DNA from: Ferrimonas balearica DSM 9799
Lineage (GTDB): Bacteria; Pseudomonadota; Gammaproteobacteria; Enterobacterales; Shewanellaceae
Length of the DNA stretch: 64,000 bases
Reading direction: 5' to 3'
NCBI RefSeq assembly: GCF_000148645.1
Contig: NC_014541.1
Location: forward strand, 4,053,139-4,117,138
The notes under the pieces were generated by a model that was given only the letters and a program-made list of their open reading frames with translations, was not told the origin of the DNA and searched no databases. Every line of letters begins with the position of its first letter. The first letter of the stretch is position 1. Both the position numbers and the translations under genes were made by a program. This document shows positions 43,798-54,492 of this stretch, one piece after another.

Positions 43798-45564
43798 GTG
43801 CCCCCTTTGCCGTCGCTGCCCAAATACCTTCTGCCACTGCTGATGAGCCTGTTGGTTTTTCCGGTCAACAGTGCCGAACTCACTGTTGGGGTGCTGGCCA
43901 ACTGGGGCTATCAGGCCGCCCAGGAGCGCTGGCAGCCGCTGATGCGACACCTGGAATCGGAGCTGCCCGGCACCACCTTCTCGGTGTTCCCGGGCACCTT
44001 TGAGCAGCTGAACCAGGCGCTGGAGTCAGGTCAGATCCAGTTTATCGTCACCAACCCGGGGCAGTACCTGTACCTGTCCAACCAGTACCCGCTGTCCTGG
44101 CTGGCCACCATGCGCTCGCGCCAGCACCAGGGCACCACCTACGCCATTGGCTCCGCCATTCTGGTGCGCGCCGACAGCCCCTATCGCACTCTGTATGACC
44201 TGAAAAACCGCACCGTGGCCGCCTCCGGCCCCCACGCCCTTGGCGGCTATCAGGCGGCGGTGGGCCTGATGCGCCAGCTGGGGATGCGACCGGAAACCTA
44301 CTTTAAGCAGGTGAACTTCCTCGGCTTCCCGCTTGACCCGCTGGTGTATCAGGTGCGTGACCGTCAGGTGGACGCCGCCATCACCCCGTTCTGCACGCTG
44401 GAGGAGATGGTGAAGCGCGGCCTGGTCAACCCGGACGATTACCGCATCCTCAATCCCAGCCACCCGCCGGGTTACGACTGCGAGGTGAGCACCGCGCTCT
44501 ACCCGAACTGGTCATTTGCCGCCAGTGAGAGTGTCGACACCCGCACCACCAAAGCGATCACCCAGGCGCTGCTGGATATCCAGCCGGACCACCCGGCCGC
44601 CATCGCGGGCCAGTTCTGGGGCTGGACCTCGCCCATCAGCCAGCTCAAGGTGATCCAGCTGTTTTCCGAGCTGCGTGGCCCCACCGAGCGGCTGACTTAC
44701 TGGCAGCATTTCCAAAACTGGCTGAAGGACAACCGCCACTGGGGCCTGCTGGCGCTGGTGATCTTCCTGGCGGCCACTTTCTACCACTTCTGGCTGGAGT
44801 ATAAATTCCGCCAGAAAAGCGAAACCCTGGTGCGCACCGAGCGTGCCCTGAAACAGAAAGCACTGCAGATGGAGCGGCTGCAGAGCGCCGCCATTATTGG
44901 CGAGATTGGTGCTGGCCTGGCCCATGAGATCAACCAGCCCATTGCTGCCATCACCAACTACAGCGAGGGCGGTATGGTGCGCCTGCAGAGCCAGACCAAG
45001 CCCGACACCGAGCTGTTGGCCCTGCTGGATAAGATCCACCAGCAGTCCTCCCGGGCCGGCGCCATCGTGCACCGCATCCGCGGCCTGCTGAAGCGCCGTG
45101 AAGCGGTGTTTGGCAAAACCAACCTGCTGACCCTGGTGGACGAAAGCCTGGCCCTGCTGCGCTCCGAGAGCGAACGCCACGGCATCCCAATCCGCTCCCG
45201 GGTTACCGGCGAACCCTACGTGGTGGAAGCGGATGCGGTGGGGATGCAGCAGGTGATGGTGAACCTGCTGAAAAACAGTCTGGATGCCCTGAAGGAGCAT
45301 CCGCCGGAGCAACCGCTGATCTGGATTACCCTGCACTTCGACCCCGACCAGGTCACCCTGCAGGTGACCGATAATGGCCCGGGCCTGAGCCTGCCAGCGG
45401 AGCAGCTGATGGCCACCTTCTCCACCACCAAGGCCGATGGCCTGGGGCTGGGGCTTGCCATCTGTGCCGATATTGCCGCCGCCCACGACGGTCAGTTCAG
45501 CATCGACAATGGCCCGGAAGGGGGCTGTCAGGCCACCCTGCTGCTGCCCCATCAGCGCCGCTGA
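43798..45564 (+). CDS. TtrS/ThsS-like sensor histidine kinase with periplasmic binding-protein domain
   Basis: 588 residues. A short signal/anchor leads into a PhnD-like periplasmic binding domain (about 20-300). A membrane helix (about 315-333, WGLLALVIFLAATFYHFWL) and a linker follow. Next come a HisKA box with GAGLAHEINQPIAAITNY (phosphoacceptor H near 380) and an ATPase with VTDNGPGL and GLGLGLAICADIAAAH. This is the domain order of tetrathionate/thiosulfate sensors. Start uncertain: GTG 43798 as given, or TTG 43807 with GGAG 8 nt upstream. Confidence 0.86.
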   Translation: MPPLPSLPKYLLPLLMSLLVFPVNSAELTVGVLANWGYQAAQERWQPLMRHLESELPGTTFSVFPGTFEQLNQALESGQIQFIVTNPGQYLYLSNQYPLSWLATMRSRQHQGTTYAIGSAILVRADSPYRTLYDLKNRTVAASGPHALGGYQAAVGLMRQLGMRPETYFKQVNFLGFPLDPLVYQVRDRQVDAAITPFCTLEEMVKRGLVNPDDYRILNPSHPPGYDCEVSTALYPNWSFAASESVDTRTTKAITQALLDIQPDHPAAIAGQFWGWTSPISQLKVIQLFSELRGPTERLTYWQHFQNWLKDNRHWGLLALVIFLAATFYHFWLEYKFRQKSETLVRTERALKQKALQMERLQSAAIIGEIGAGLAHEINQPIAAITNYSEGGMVRLQSQTKPDTELLALLDKIHQQSSRAGAIVHRIRGLLKRREAVFGKTNLLTLVDESLALLRSESERHGIPIRSRVTGEPYVVEADAVGMQQVMVNLLKNSLDALKEHPPEQPLIWITLHFDPDQVTLQVTDNGPGLSLPAEQLMATFSTTKADGLGLGLAICADIAAAHDGQFSIDNGPEGGCQATLLLPHQRR

Positions 45565-48657: not shown

Positions 48658-49601
48658 ACAATATCTGGGGCGACATGGCGCAATACGATCCCGTCGTTTG
48701 GAACTGGATCATCGCTGTATACCTGTTTATGGCGGGCCTCTCTGCCGGCAGCCTGCTGGTGGCCATCGGTCTGCGTTGGTACAAGGAGAAGCGCGGTTTG
48801 CCGGTGGAAGGTCTGCCGGTGATCAAAGCGTCGGCACTGATTGGCCCACTGGCGATCTGTGCCGGTATGGGACTGCTGGTGCTGGACCTGACCAAACCGT
48901 TCCACTTCTACCTCATCCTGATCAACTACAACCTCACCTCGGTGATGGCCTGGGGTGTGATCGCCCTGCTGGTCTACATCCCGCTGGTGTTCGTTTACGC
49001 CGCCCTGGTGTTTGAACGTCCGCTGGTGGAGAAGGTGCCGGCCCTGGCCGGGATGCTGAAGGTGGCCCGCACCCTCGAAGGCACCCTGCTGAAGGTGATC
49101 TTCGCACTGGCCCTGGCGGTTGGGGTGTACACCGGCTTCCTGCTGTCGGCGATGATCAGCTACCCGATCCTCAACACCGCAGTGCTGCCCGCCCTGTTCC
49201 TGGCCTCGGCCCTGAGCGTGGGTTCGGCCGGTAACATCCTGGTGGCCACCCTGTTCTTCAACAAGAAGGCCTCCGACTGTATCGAACAGGTGCACCGCAT
49301 CGAGTACCCGGTGGCCTTTAACGAAGCGCTCTGCCTGGTGCTGCTGTTTGTTGGCCTGAACTTCTCCGGTCCGGCTGCGCAAGCCGCCACCGCCGCCATC
49401 ACCACCGGCACCTGGGCCAGCGTGTTCTGGATTGGCGTGGTGGGTCTGGGCCTGGCGGTACCGGTACTGGCGAGTGTCTTTACCCCGGCCAAGCTGAAGC
49501 ACAGCCGCGGCTTCCTGATTGCGGTGTCCTGCTGCACCATCATCGGTGTGCTGTCACTGCGTCACTTCGTGGTGTACGCCGGACAGAGCTACATCAGCTG
49601 A
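48654..49601 (+). CDS. psrC: NrfD/PsrC-type quinol-oxidising membrane subunit
   Basis: 315 residues with about eight membrane helices and no heme-binding pattern, as in NrfD/PsrC. It oxidises quinol and delivers electrons to PsrB. The N-terminus ([21 protein letters not shown]) and [20 protein letters not shown] are typical. It overlaps psrB by 4 nt. No gene for a PsrD/TorD-type chaperone follows before the terminator. Confidence 0.92.
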
Positions 49602-49626
49602 ATCCGCCCCTCCCCTGAGGCAACCC

Positions 49627-49654
49627 AAAGCCCCCGCTTAAGCGGGGGTTTTTT
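49627..49654 (+). terminator. Intrinsic terminator after psrABC
   Basis: The stem CCCCCGCTT/AAGCGGGGG is preceded by AAAG and followed by TTTTTT. It isolates the AT-rich module downstream from the psr transcript. Confidence 0.93.
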
Positions 49655-49865
49655 CGTTGATGCAAACACCGAGATCCTGATTGTAAGAACCGCTGAATAA
49701 TTACACTGCCAATACAAATTTCCTAAGTGCTCACCTATTCCTCGTCATGCTCACCATGATAGAAAAGAGTTCCGAAACCACTTCGCGTTTTATAAAAGGA
49801 AGCTGTCGCGAGTAGTCGGATAACTAAGACTAACCTTAAGTAATATTTGATAAGGAACATTGATT
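49655..49865 (+). promoter_or_regulatory. AT-rich upstream region of the peptide gene
   Basis: About 210 bases with abruptly lower G+C than psrC. Possible -10 elements are TATAAA (about 49794) and TAATAT (about 49841), neither with a clear -35. AAGGA at 49852-49856 is the ribosome binding site of the peptide gene, with 9 nt spacing. A 22-codon frame at 49747-49815 has no ribosome binding site and is not called. Confidence 0.4.
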
Positions 49866-49967
49866 ATGAAAGAGCTCAATCAACAAGAACTGCTGGAAGT
49901 TAATGGCGGAGTGATCCCACTGCTTATCGGCTTGGCAGCACTGCTTTATTCTGCTGAGGCACATTAA
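49866..49967 (+). CDS. Double-glycine-leader peptide (bacteriocin/pheromone-like precursor)
   Basis: A 33-residue precursor missed by ordinary ORF length cut-offs. The leader MKELNQQELLEVNGG matches the double-glycine consensus LSxxELxxIxGG at the key places: L-12, E-8, L-7, V-4, G-2, G-1. The predicted core VIPLLIGLAALLYSAEAH is 18 residues, strongly hydrophobic with a polar SAEAH tail, and has no Cys, so no disulfide or lanthionine ring is possible. A good ribosome binding site (AAGGA) supports translation. It is followed by a hairpin terminator and an ABC transporter. Known double-glycine leaders are removed by C39 peptidase transporters, and none is in this window. Function is unknown: toxin, signal or transporter-linked peptide. 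Confidence 0.72.
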   Translation: MKELNQQELLEVNGGVIPLLIGLAALLYSAEAH

Positions 49968-49976
49968 CTTGACAGT

Positions 49977-50005
49977 GGCAGGAAGGAGTTTTCTTCCTGC
50001 CTTTT
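49977..50005 (+). terminator. Terminator/attenuator between peptide and ABC genes
   Basis: GGCAGGAAG/CTTCCTGCC, a 9-bp perfect stem with loop GAGTTTT, followed by TTTT. It ends only 5 nt before the ATPase ATG, so transcripts would mostly stop after the peptide gene and only read-through would express the transporter. The AAGGAG inside the stem is too far (about 22 nt) to serve the ATPase start. Confidence 0.8.
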
Positions 50006-50010
50006 AGAAA

Positions 50011-50583
50011 ATGATAAAAGTTGAAAACCTCCTCTACTCAATCGGCTCCAACACCATAATTAAAAATCTAAGCCTTGAATTTGGTCATGGGGATACACTC
50101 GTTACTGGCCCCAATGGATGTGGGAAAACCACATTACTTATGATCATTTGTGGCCTGATTAATCCAACACGCGGCTCTGTAACCGTTGATAAGGCGTTCC
50201 AGTCGGGAACACAAACATTTTCCCTATCTACTGAAGCCATCACTCCACCGCAGAACTTTACGGCCTCACAACTTCTATCGCTATTCAATCGGTATAATCA
50301 TGTTGACGCAGAAAGGCAATGTGAGCTCATTGATAAAACAGAGATGTGCCAATTTCTCAATTTCAATATTGGAGAGTTATCCACTGGCTCAAAAAAGAAG
50401 CTATCGTTGATTACCGCAATATCTAAACGATCAAAAATACTGCTGCTTGATGAACCTTTTAATGGGCTGGATAATGAAAGTCTCTTAGTATTTGAGTCAA
50501 CCCTTTCGGATGACACCCGAGGAAAAATCATTGTTGATCATAACAATAAATTGAAGATTAACAACACCTTCCATCTTGGCTGA
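50011..50583 (+). CDS. Compact ABC transporter ATP-binding protein
   Basis: 190 residues, short for an ABC ATPase. Walker A is GPNGCGKT (33-40), the signature is LSTGS (123-127) in place of LSGGQ, Walker B is KILLLDEPF (142-150) with GLD after it, and the switch histidine is H177 in IVDHN. The pattern resembles ATPases of ABC-2-type exporters and immunity transporters rather than C39 exporters. No strong ribosome binding site precedes ATG 50011. AT-rich, unlike the flanking genome. It overlaps the permease by 8 nt. Confidence 0.85.
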   Translation: MIKVENLLYSIGSNTIIKNLSLEFGHGDTLVTGPNGCGKTTLLMIICGLINPTRGSVTVDKAFQSGTQTFSLSTEAITPPQNFTASQLLSLFNRYNHVDAERQCELIDKTEMCQFLNFNIGELSTGSKKKLSLITAISKRSKILLLDEPFNGLDNESLLVFESTLSDDTRGKIIVDHNNKLKINNTFHLG

Positions 50584-51394
50584 GCATTCATCAGTGGTAA
50601 ACTACATATCTAAATCGAGAAGGAAACCAAATATAAAACCAGACTCTGGTTCCTTAGCTATATTTTTGACCATTATCCTTATTTCCCCATTGGTAATGTT
50701 CTTTATCCCTGTACCTGGTTATATAATTCTGTCCGAAAACCAAATCCATACAAAAATAATATGCATTGCCGTCTATATAGCATTCGGGTTTGGAGAGTCG
50801 GTTTATTATCTATCGAGCTGGAACAGAGAAGAGATAATCTACTTCGTATACAGCTACGGAAAGCGTAGAACCGCAATCAAATTTGCCATAACGTTTTTTA
50901 GCCAAGGTTTAATATATCATTTCATCGTTCTCTCACCATTTTTTGTCGATTCAAGCATAGAAATGAATCCAGTATACATTTCACTGGCCTACCTCGGACT
51001 TCTAGTGATTTTGCTAATCAACTTAAACTTAAAAATACGCGGATTTAATATATCATTTAAGATTGATTATTTATCAATAAAACTACTTCTGATAGGTTTA
51101 TCATCGGATATGATTCCCAGTGCAGTCGCTTTGGTTACTGCGTCCATAATATACCTATGGATAAAATCAGCGATTCCCATCAATGAGATGTATGCTTTTT
51201 ATGCCCTGTTTATTTCAATAGTCAACCTTTTACTCGTGATATCGATAATAAGAAAAATGAAAAGTAATCTTAACGCTCACCGCCATTTCATCAATGTAAC
51301 AAATCCTTTTCTGTTCAAGAAAATCATGCTTTGTCATAAAGTATTGAGTTTCTCGCTATTTTCTATCTTTATCCTAGTCATCCAGATTATTTGA
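50576..51394 (+). CDS. ABC transporter permease-like membrane protein
   Basis: 272 residues if it starts at TTG 50576. A GTG within the first eight codons is an alternative. About seven hydrophobic segments are visible (near 27-52, 61-82, 102-124, 134-152, 169-195, 203-225 and 256-272), with basic loops between. I recognise no family motif. It is inferred to be the ABC-2-like permease of the preceding ATPase because the genes overlap. Strong AT bias and many ATA and AAA codons mark it as foreign to this genome. No terminator is obvious after it. Confidence 0.75.
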   Translation: MAEHSSVVNYISKSRRKPNIKPDSGSLAIFLTIILISPLVMFFIPVPGYIILSENQIHTKIICIAVYIAFGFGESVYYLSSWNREEIIYFVYSYGKRRTAIKFAITFFSQGLIYHFIVLSPFFVDSSIEMNPVYISLAYLGLLVILLINLNLKIRGFNISFKIDYLSIKLLLIGLSSDMIPSAVALVTASIIYLWIKSAIPINEMYAFYALFISIVNLLLVISIIRKMKSNLNAHRHFINVTNPFLFKKIMLCHKVLSFSLFSIFILVIQII

Positions 51395-52023
51395 CGTTTT
51401 GCGTAGTAACACCATCCCCTTGCATTGGCTCTGGCCCCTCGCCGGCAGCCCCATGAACGGCACCGGATGACTGCGGCGCTTCGTGATGTACGCCCTACAA
51501 TCCGACACTCTCTGGTCCTCCCCCTCTCCTTGCGATCGCCACTTCCCCGCGGAGGCCGTTCTTATATTCCTACTCAAGAATAAAACGCGAATATTCAGAC
51601 AAATAGAGAATAAAGCGATTGATTATTCCAATTATTTACCTTAATTATTATCAATGTGTCATTAACCCGTCATACAAATCATAAGCTTACGATTTTCCCA
51701 CAGTAACATTAACGTGACTTAAATTAGGATTGGTTAAACAAGATCATTCTGTTGAATAAATTCAAAAAAACTGACAAAAAGCCTCATGCCAAGGGCTACA
51801 GCGCGGCGCAATGCCACTTCATCAAGTCAGTAAAAGCATCAGATTCAAAAATAATATTGTCAAATAATATCAGCAGATTAACCGCGAGAAGATTATTCTC
51901 ATTTTTCACCTTCCCAACGTTAAATAAGGCGTCATATATTGATCATAATCAATAGCGAAAAATCATCGTCTTAGTCGCTCTGCTTTACTTGTTTTTGGAG
52001 GCATCCAAGCCAAGGAGAGCATT
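51395..52023. other. Intergenic region, mosaic base composition
   Basis: About 630 bases. The first 170 (51400-51570) are GC-rich again. The rest is AT-rich with short inverted repeats such as GAATAA-N9-TTATTC (about 51609-51629). A 67-codon frame at 51752-51955 begins with TTG and has no ribosome binding site. A minus-strand frame at 51374-51577 looks like chance coding. I call no gene. The promoter of the next gene presumably lies here, and AAGGAG precedes ATG 52024. Confidence 0.5.
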
Positions 52024-54273
52024 ATGAAAAAAAGCACGCTTTTTCCATCACTGATATGGGCCTCGCTGTTCCTCCCAACTCTGGCTCTGTCGCAACCGGT
52101 GCTCAGTCCAACCGGAGCCCCCATCCTGCTATCCGGTGGGGAGGGTGAACAAACCCCCGATCTGGACGCCACCTCAAAGACCAAGCTGGTCCGGCTGACC
52201 AACGGCGGCGCCTCAGATGGGCGCCTGATCACCGTCTTTGCCGATGGTTGGGGCAGCAGTGCATTCCCTGCCGGACATCGGGTGTATGACGTAAAAGCCG
52301 ACATCGAGCGACCGGCCCGCGACATCTTTGCCCGTTATTCGGATGACGATGGCCAAACCTGGTCAGACACCGTCAACCTGTCGCAAACCGCTGCGCTGAG
52401 CTCCATCGCCACGCTCTGGCAGGGTGAAGACAGCGCGATCGCGCCGTTCTACGGCGACTCCGACAAACCCAACATCTTCAACTCCGGCACCATGGTGGTG
52501 GTCAGTTGGGTCGATAAGTATTGCGATCCGGACCAGCAAGGCAGTGTCAGCTACATCGAGCGGGACTTTCGCGAGATCCCCTTCAGCTGTGTCTACAGCG
52601 TCCGCTCCATCGATGGCGGCGCCACATGGCAACCTGCCCAGCGCCTCACCTCCGGCATCCGGGATGCCAAACAGGACGTCAATCGTGGCAGCAGCAAAGC
52701 CTGGGTCATCACCTGGCAAGAGGACCCGGCCGGATTGCTGCTCGGTGAAGCCGAAGGGCCCGGTCACGGTGCCTCAGGCGCCATCGTCTCCCACGGCACA
52801 GACATCTGGTACAGCTCGATCAGCACCGCATTCCCGGAAGGGGGCAAGCTGTCAGATAGTCCCTTTGGCAAAGGGATGCCGTTCTCGCCGCCAAGCCGAA
52901 TCACCAACAACTGGACCAAGATGGAAGACAAGCGCAACGACGGCGACCCTATTCAGTCGGGGACCGAGGGCGCTTCCCGGGCCAATCTGGCTCTGGTCGG
53001 CGGTACCGTCGTCGTCGCCTATGAGGAGACCAAGGGCACCGAGGGGATCGACGAGGGGAAATACATCCGCTATCACAGCTTCCCCTTCAATCAGCCCCCC
53101 GCCAGCGTTGCCAATGCCTGCCTGAGTGAACTCAATGGCACCCCGCAGGATTGCCAGGATGACAACCTGCCCCCCAACGCCCAACTGCCTCAACGCATGG
53201 GCTGTATCCTCAGCGCACCGGAGCAGAACGGACGCCGGGTTCGCTTCCTGCCTCAAGCCAAACCGGGCCCTTCCGGCACCAAGTTGTTTATCTTCTGGAA
53301 GCAGGGTGAGTATGACCAGGGCGGCCCCTCCGACATCGTTGGACGACTGGCCACCGATTTTGCCGACCTGTCCAGCTTCCATCCGGCGCTGAACGTTGCT
53401 CCCGCCGATATCGTGGGCGGCTGCCTGATACGGGGTGAAGACGACGCCACCGAGCCGCTGCTGCAGGGCGCTTTTGCCAATGCACCCGCCATGAACCTGA
53501 GCCACGAGACCCCCCTTGGCGGTGATCTGGCCGCGCACAGCGACGACAATCCGATCGAGGATGCCCGCGCCCACCGGGGCTACATCCGCGGCGATACCCT
53601 GATCCTGGGCTACAGCTATACCCCCGATCTGGTGTTGGCACGCGCCACGGATCTGGAGCACTACAACTTCTGGATCCGGCGCTCGCTGGATGGTGGCCAC
53701 AGCTGGGAGGCCGCCAGGGACATCACTTCCGAGTTGATCCTGGCGTACGTCAATCAGCACCCGGACTACACCGCAATGGCCCAGATCGACGTCAAAGAGC
53801 CTCGCATCGTCAAAGCCCCCGGCAGCAGCCCGGTGGCCTGCCCGACCGGCGATCCTGACGACCCCAGCACCACCGACCCGTCATTGTGCAGCAACCCGGA
53901 AGGCTTCATCGTTGCCGGTGGTCTGGTGGAGAACACCTATGAACACCTCGGCGCAGGCCGGGAGTTGGAGCTGTTCGTGACTCGCTCTCTGGACGCGGGA
54001 GCCACTTACGAGACGCCGCTCATCTTCACGGCCGCCAACAGTGAGGATTATGAGTCGCAACTGCGGGTCAGCCCCGACCTGAGCCAGACTTACGTGGTCT
54101 GGAACAGCGCCACAGAGGCACAGGGCGTTAACGGTTACTTCGTCACCCTGGCACCCCAGGAACCGGCACCGCAACCGCGCCGCATCACCTCCTCGGGGAC
54201 TCTCGGCATGCTGGCACTGCTGATGTTGGGCCTGGTGCTGGCCATTATCCGTTTCAACTCAACGAAGCGGTGA
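52024..54273 (+). CDS. Asp-box (sialidase-like) secreted protein with C-terminal anchor segment
   Basis: 749 residues with a signal peptide (about 1-23). Four Asp-box-like repeats are visible (SDDDGQTW, SIDGGATW, SLDGGHSW, SLDAGATY), spaced through the protein as in sialidase-type beta-propellers. The C-terminus is SSGTLGMLALLMLGLVLAII then RFNSTKR: a Gly-containing start, a membrane helix and a basic tail, resembling GlyGly-CTERM or other C-terminal sorting signals (the type annotated as choice-of-anchor proteins). Probably displayed on or released from the cell surface. Substrate unknown. High G+C again, so it lies outside the AT-rich island. Confidence 0.75.
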   Translation: MKKSTLFPSLIWASLFLPTLALSQPVLSPTGAPILLSGGEGEQTPDLDATSKTKLVRLTNGGASDGRLITVFADGWGSSAFPAGHRVYDVKADIERPARDIFARYSDDDGQTWSDTVNLSQTAALSSIATLWQGEDSAIAPFYGDSDKPNIFNSGTMVVVSWVDKYCDPDQQGSVSYIERDFREIPFSCVYSVRSIDGGATWQPAQRLTSGIRDAKQDVNRGSSKAWVITWQEDPAGLLLGEAEGPGHGASGAIVSHGTDIWYSSISTAFPEGGKLSDSPFGKGMPFSPPSRITNNWTKMEDKRNDGDPIQSGTEGASRANLALVGGTVVVAYEETKGTEGIDEGKYIRYHSFPFNQPPASVANACLSELNGTPQDCQDDNLPPNAQLPQRMGCILSAPEQNGRRVRFLPQAKPGPSGTKLFIFWKQGEYDQGGPSDIVGRLATDFADLSSFHPALNVAPADIVGGCLIRGEDDATEPLLQGAFANAPAMNLSHETPLGGDLAAHSDDNPIEDARAHRGYIRGDTLILGYSYTPDLVLARATDLEHYNFWIRRSLDGGHSWEAARDITSELILAYVNQHPDYTAMAQIDVKEPRIVKAPGSSPVACPTGDPDDPSTTDPSLCSNPEGFIVAGGLVENTYEHLGAGRELELFVTRSLDAGATYETPLIFTAANSEDYESQLRVSPDLSQTYVVWNSATEAQGVNGYFVTLAPQEPAPQPRRITSSGTLGMLALLMLGLVLAIIRFNSTKR

Positions 54274-54282
54274 CAATCCACA

Positions 54283-54303
54283 GGGGGAGGCACCGCCTCC
54301 CCC
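54283..54303 (+). terminator. GC-rich hairpin after the Asp-box gene
   Basis: GGGGGAGGC/GCCTCCCCC with loop ACC, 10 nt after the stop. No T-run follows, so termination efficiency is uncertain. Confidence 0.55.
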
Positions 54304-54492
54304 CTTACGCCTGGCCATGCCAGCCATCCGGTTGATTATCTTCAGGCTCTGACTCCCCCCCAAAAAACGACAGCACGCCAGTTTACGGACACCCGGTTTC
54401 GACGCGCTTTGGCAGCGAAGTAATTGCTTGCCTTAATGGCCAAAATCCCTACAATCCGCCGCCTTCTCTTTGTCGTACTACTGAACGTTTTC

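Follow-up and report, generated by a model that had tools for sequence, protein, structure and literature searches.

We found a 33-codon gene for a double-glycine (GG) leader peptide directly ahead of a two-gene ABC transporter in a 64,000-nucleotide stretch of the Ferrimonas balearica DSM 9799 genome (here called the window; C1:4053139-4117138 of a single contig of 4,279,159 bases). We give a probability of about one half (0.48) to the reading that this is an acquired, single-peptide mini-cassette of the class II microcin type whose product is exported in trans and whose ABC pair serves the producer for its own protection. A remote C39 transporter would recognize the 33-aa precursor by its leader and cut after the GG, the product would leave through a fusion protein and a TolC-type channel, and the hydrophobic 18-mer would act at competitors' membranes. 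The ATPase-permease pair would have been recruited from a stand-alone transporter family and would clear the peptide from the producer's inner membrane in the manner of LanFEG, with a hairpin that may hold the pump level below the peptide level. We infer self-protection by the ABC pair, which is plausible. Adjacency, common acquisition and analogy with other orphan patches suggest that peptide and pump are coupled.

Results

The peptide gene lies on the plus strand at 49866-49967. A likely ribosome-binding site (AAGGA, 49852-49856) is placed 9 nt 5' of its ATG, so the earlier description of a 33-codon gene with a ribosome-binding site was correct. The gene encodes a 15-aa leader (MKELNQQELLEVNGG, 49866-49910) and, from the position after the GG, a predicted mature core of 18 aa (VIPLLIGLAALLYSAEAH, 49911-49964), which is Cys-free and hydrophobic as had been claimed (mean Kyte-Doolittle 1.59) and has a mass of about 1.9 kDa (calculated by hand). 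The leader had also been said to match LSxxELxxIxGG at all key positions. In LNQQELLEVNGG the spacing of this motif is kept, but the letters are not, with N replacing S and V replacing I.

The peptide scored 33.3 bits against NCBIfam model TIGR03949 (cut-off, 21.5; E 3e-8), and a whole-genome search with this model recovered the locus at C1:4103007 (E 1.3e-6). Since the score exceeds the curated cut-off, the leader is of a known kind, and the proposal of a bacteriocin-type precursor gains support. The match to Pfam Bacteriocin_IIc was suggestive at most (13.1 bits, below the cut-off of 27.1; E 0.097). The window contains a single short ORF with the strict leader motif, compared to 0.025 per first-order resampled window, and a looser form likewise matches once compared to 0.325 expected (40 resamplings each). 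The TIGR03949 scores and these resamplings rule out a chance ORF.

Class IIb bacteriocins consist of two-peptide partners with GxxxG helices. A motif scan of the surrounding block found no second GG-leader ORF that could serve as a class IIb partner. The window core contains a single Gly and no GxxxG, and it is the shortest among the 15 GG peptides of our alignment A4, in which 13 of the other 14 cores have at least 29 residues and the remaining one has 21. Its shortness and lack of GxxxG thus raise the possibility that the gene is a nonfunctional remnant, by decay or truncation, of a class IIb bacteriocin gene. We consider this improbable. The gene has a clean start, the Shine-Dalgarno-like AAGGA and a hairpin 3' of its stop, its in-frame continuation holds no bacteriocin-like sequence by eye, and similarly short GG peptides were found elsewhere, with 35 aa (L186), 36 aa (L142) and 40 aa (L190).

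We compared the genomic site with those of three close relatives (G003, G004 and G007), in each of which the content differs. The variable block spans 49655-54411, from a molybdopterin-oxidoreductase operon to an aminotransferase-like gene, with the right edge at 54411 by comparison with G007, 54849 with G004 and 54896 with G003. The large subunit of the preceding operon is a molybdopterin oxidoreductase, and its last gene is 96-98% identical in all three relatives; we read this last gene as NrfD-type and the far-side gene as an aminotransferase. In G004, 12 bp separate the aligned blocks and the window match resumes from 54850, while the same site holds other genes in G003 (approximately 1.35 kb) and G007 (2.36 kb). 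A profile search found no permease in G003, G004 or G007, and the whole peptide-ABC module is absent from these relatives. The module is AT-rich, as noted before, with GC contents of 0.46 (peptide), 0.40 (ATPase) and 0.34 (permease) versus 0.62 for the preceding gene. These data are most simply read as a gain of the module in its own lineage at a variable site. Farther along, a perfect TTGATCATAATCAA at 51939-51952, which we take to be an FNR-type box, stands 5' of a gene for a BNR-repeat protein (52024-54273) and is the sole exact match in the window (0.04 expected).

The block also bears on whether the peptide could be a pheromone, exported by the remote C39 transporter, to which the ABC pair responds or which it imports. 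Known short GG pheromones are similar in length to the 18-residue core, and the peptide gave a subthreshold match to an EntF-inducer model (11.6 versus 35 bits; E 0.26). However, the five searched genes of the block include no kinase or regulator, and the sensor kinase gene at 43798-45564 sits before the molybdopterin gene. We regard a signalling role as very unlikely.

The ATPase gene (50011-50583, plus strand) follows the peptide gene on the same strand after a gap of 43 nt and encodes 190 aa (PF00005; E 4.1e-22) with intact Walker A, LSTGS, LLLDEP and switch His motifs; LSTG, LLLDEP and the switch His are invariant in a three-row alignment. The permease gene (50576-51394, plus strand) overlaps it, starts with TTG at 50576 (alternative GTG at 50594) and encodes 272 aa with a PxPGY motif and approximately seven hydrophobic segments by crude hydropathy. 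The picture of a compact LSTGS ATPase with an overlapping seven-helix permease therefore stands. Pfam places no C39 domain in either protein, again as first described. The permease had no matches in Pfam or NCBIfam at E 1 or in PHROGs or PADLOC at E 0.01, and a sequence profile of its family had none among solved structures at E 1. Thus, the word "undescribed" in the earlier note fits the permease, for which no family model matched, but not the leader, which is of the curated TIGR03949 kind. We discarded a defence system, as the ATPase matched PADLOC ATPase models (best mad3, 65 bits) while peptide and permease matched none. Mobile spread of the pair was likewise set aside, as the permease had no match in a plasmid collection; the ATPase matched at least 5000 records there, and among the matches listed all were below 60% identity.

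Permease-profile matches were found in 3 of 14 genus genomes, 3 of 152 genomes of the family, and, in sampled sets, in 6 of 394 genomes of the order (among them G348, a partial copy with stops), 1 of 369 of the class (the genome studied here) and 10 of 295 of a second family (including G889, interrupted by stops, and G1070, a weak partial match). Without G348, G889 and G1070, 11 other intact pairs remain (G009, G012, G096, G235, G395, G989, G1017, G953, G1049, G899 and G929). With the window included, each of the 12 intact loci has a homologous ATPase gene followed by a homologous permease gene. In a tree of seven of the twelve intact members and 24 other ATPases, the window ATPase and six family ATPases grouped together (97/98 support), and among 2,923 ORFs of the collected loci, L101-L104 included, the permease profile A3 found the family only (next best, E 0.005). 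The ATPase and permease therefore form a genuine two-gene family. Separately, we observed a broken permease copy at L168 6564-7187 (G889) with no family ATPase found beside it; thus, the pair has also been lost there. At L163, L166 and L167, which represent one genus and three genomes, the pair is directly 3' of a gene that is presumably methylglyoxal synthase-like.

A loose leader scan found no GG-leader gene beside any of the 11 other intact pairs. It covered 1.5 kb on each side of the pair in the first set and, in the second, the interval from 2.3 kb below the permease to 1.5 kb above it, with opposite-strand loose matches not shown. A stricter pattern matched three kinds of frame near the pairs, all of which overlap longer genes. 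In L013/L100 and L101 the frame is a 126-aa ORF antisense to the next gene, in L104 it is the C-terminal portion of the next gene and in L163 it belongs to a 215-aa ORF. The pair thus exists elsewhere without such a peptide, and the window member is the sole one of 12 beside a GG-leader gene. The earlier note had named a lack of conservation of the peptide beside homologous transporters as an outcome that would refute its module, and a conserved peptide-transporter cassette is indeed ruled out as far as the sampling reaches. These counts weigh against our mini-cassette reading, since the family needs no GG peptide and the pairing has been seen once only.

The main rival is that the peptide is an orphan exported in trans and that the ABC pair is an unrelated, stand-alone efflux transporter. 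By eye, from translations, the other 11 pairs sit among seemingly unrelated housekeeping genes, and a hairpin separates the peptide gene from the ATPase gene here, both as this reading expects. Against it stand the shared strand, the 43-nt gap and the common AT-rich acquired block, together with parallel patches elsewhere in which a membrane-protein gene holds the same position. We rate it as doubtful, though a serious contender.

The hairpin itself (49977-50001, plus strand; 11 bp, followed by UUUU; −17.7 kcal/mol, z −3.45) is, by its sequence, a candidate terminator or attenuator. It lies outside the 4 sites of a terminator scan that requires at least 5 T in 8. A promoter scan of the region gave 7 sites (7.4 expected) and none from 49580 to the peptide, which counts against the mini-cassette. 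An RNA element was dropped as a reading, as Rfam at gathering thresholds had no match over 49500-52100. Strong hairpins (z ≤ −3.0) occur 3' of the window peptide and of those in L186, L188 and L190 and were not seen at this threshold in L187 and L192. Using plain shuffles and 45 nt 3' of the stop, z ≤ −3 was reached at 3 of 6 peptide ends and at 16 of 98 control ends (long open frames), and −13 kcal/mol or lower at 4 of 6 and 44 of 98. Folded stretches 3' of PCAT-linked peptides hold further peptide genes and were therefore unusable as a control. As a cassette hallmark the hairpin is weak; gene-end hairpins are common here, and this one may just end the peptide transcript, a further point against the mini-cassette.

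We searched the host genome for the C39 peptidase called for by the earlier note and found a single candidate at C1:654761. It lies 3.45 Mb from the peptide on the linear contig; on a circular chromosome the opposite route would be 0.83 Mb. It belongs to a 731-aa transporter whose Cys, His and Asp motifs match those of a C39 domain of known structure in an alignment. The transporter is part of an operon-like run (L002 7427-11864; G000:C1 approximately 652-657 kb) that also holds a fusion protein assigned by HlyD-type similarity (140.5 bits, below the model cut-off of 208.65), three GG peptides (48, 44 and 48 aa) and a 101-aa ORF with four hydrophobic segments. The window leader shares 9 of 15 residues, motif positions included, with each of two leaders of this operon. 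This single remote match, with conserved catalytic motifs and its own GG-peptide operon, strengthens the idea of leader cleavage by the product of a distant gene. A matching three-peptide run occurs in G302, of the same family (L151 367-4756). Cores of these runs, e.g., MPVAIAWAVLEGAAGLAGLFSGGWALGHYLYSE, carry GxxxG-type motifs, and the run looks like a multi-peptide class IIb-type microcin of Gram-negatives.

Adjacency is the one point in favour of export of the peptide by the ABC pair itself, with another protease removing the leader. Neither ABC protein has a C39 domain, the peptide's block contains no fusion-protein gene, the family occurs without GG peptides and the genome already has a C39 exporter with a fusion protein. 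We judge this the least probable of the readings.

Orphan GG peptides were then sought with A4 as a profile (15 GG peptides, three from this genome) in 14 genus genomes at E 0.1. Of the 11 genomes with a C39 gene, 8 had A4 matches, compared to 0 of the 3 without C39. This association is weak (one-sided 0.055, by hand). The main matches adjoin C39 in 4 of the 8 genomes (G002, G008, G012 and G013, within approximately 3 kb); G002 has one weak match away from C39 as well (E 0.087). A motif scan revealed GG peptides beside the G007 C39 gene that A4 had missed, so absence of an A4 match is no proof of absence. Beside a C39 gene of G007, at L145 9380-9713, two GG peptides are near-identical and acidic (LTPEELAEIQGGQG... 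FPPGGIIRI) and unlike the other GG peptides that we observed.

Two further loci in the genome studied here matched A4; the scores are weak, but at both of them a complete leader begins a short ORF. The peptide at C1:1345645 (E 0.0055; 35 aa, MRDLTSQEVETVSGG/CGVCAVVDAVAALIKALVHK; 19.0 bits with TIGR03949, below the cut-off) is followed by a hairpin and then by a 259-aa ORF with two N-terminal hydrophobic segments. Its flanks are 67 bp apart in G004 versus 1,201 bp here; G003 matched one side and G007 has the sides on separate contigs, so neither is informative. At C1:1941942-1942189, two peptides (E 0.026 and 0.0998; 46 and 49 aa) precede an ORF of 53 aa that has a single hydrophobic segment. 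This locus is flanked by 179-bp direct repeats that are 92.7% identical (L187 5984-6162 and 7741-7919). Beyond the window, orphan GG peptides lie on AT-rich patches, one of which is missing from G004.

Matches far from any C39 were found in G010 (E 6.3e-7), G011 (1.2e-4) and G006 (0.0197). In each, the next gene is AT-rich, on the same strand and encodes a protein with four hydrophobic segments (127 aa in G010, 198 aa in G011 and 134 aa in G006). The G011 neighbour matched PF02517 (Rce1/CAAX-type; 42.5 bits versus 22.4). A paper on CAAX proteases cites immunity roles for such proteins but found none for SilX (PMC9298176); a CAAX neighbour is therefore no proof of immunity. These patches with membrane-protein neighbours lend weight to the proposal of a mini-cassette of a Gram-negative. 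Elsewhere, a GG pair in G333 (L150) has no export genes in the 14 kb around it. For two other pairs, in G021 (L139) and G017 (L140), the 8 kb covered likewise holds none, but a contig end is 1-2 kb away. We also observed a cluster in G027 (L142 363-9952) with several GG peptides, a C39 transporter, a rhomboid-family protein (PF01694) and MacAB-like-looking genes; the leader and short core of its 36-aa peptide are similar to those of the window peptide.

A broader version of our reading, which we offer tentatively, is that one chromosomal C39 exporter serves in trans a set of scattered, exchanged GG-peptide mini-cassettes whose protection genes differ in kind (small multi-spanning proteins, a CAAX-type protease or a two-gene ABC pump). 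A cell would in this way gather cargo modules without export genes, and the window would hold a single-peptide class II microcin-type cassette of a Gram-negative with ABC-efflux immunity.

Discussion

Several published observations bear on the mini-cassette reading. The MccV machinery is described as exporting peptides of widely differing sequence when their genes are carried on a different plasmid from the export genes (PMC10231218), which makes export in trans credible. The shortest cargo tested in that study was 26 aa including a tag, and its authors expected better export of longer cargo. The 18-residue core is shorter than this, which counts against our reading. In a survey of E. coli genomes, 81.9% of microcin hits came from an assembly in which a PCAT was also found (PMC9746304). 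LanFEG pumps are described as expelling lantibiotics from the membrane (PMC5786555), and efflux is given as immunity for some class I microcins (PMC10233263). GG peptides are also credited with other roles, such as biofilm development in Synechococcus (PMC4997328).

If the mini-cassette reading is true, one exporter could be loaded with exchangeable peptide-protection modules. Orphan cassettes would then be a testable source of very short antibacterial peptides. Microcin searches confined to export-gene neighbourhoods would miss orphan cassettes of this kind. The permease of the narrow two-gene ABC family falls outside all family libraries searched (Pfam, NCBIfam, PHROGs and PADLOC).

We found no direct report of a peptide-plus-ABC module of this kind in the open-licence PMC literature, and the module was compared with the nearest known systems. 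With TIGR03949 (class IIb, lactobin A/cerein 7B family) it shares the GG leader and the start of the core. However, that name refers to two-peptide bacteriocins, while the block here has one GG peptide, with an 18-residue core that lacks GxxxG. The microcin V type (precursor, immunity, PCAT, MFP and TolC) is similar in its GG precursor. A PCAT and a fusion protein are present in this genome as in those of class II microcins, but remotely (C1:654761 versus C1:4103007) rather than near the precursor, and the neighbouring ABC genes, lacking C39, are not a PCAT. Class II microcins have a small immunity protein adjacent, whereas the window has a two-gene ABC transporter, and the mature mass of about 1.9 kDa compares to approximately 5-10 kDa for class II microcins as tabulated (Table 1, PMC10233263).

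The likeness to LanFEG is a compact ATPase and a small membrane subunit of six to seven helices beside a gene for a membrane-active peptide (PMC5786555). LanFEG has two permeases, of 214-252 aa in the examples given there, in contrast to the one of 272 aa here. The window ATPase scores far under the TIGR03740 cut-off (69.7 versus 309.75 bits), no lanthionine enzymes were seen in the window block and the family elsewhere occurs without a GG peptide. The closest relatives of the pair are those of the family that we label "PxPGY permease," with which it shares the ATPase group and the position of the permease 3' of the ATPase.
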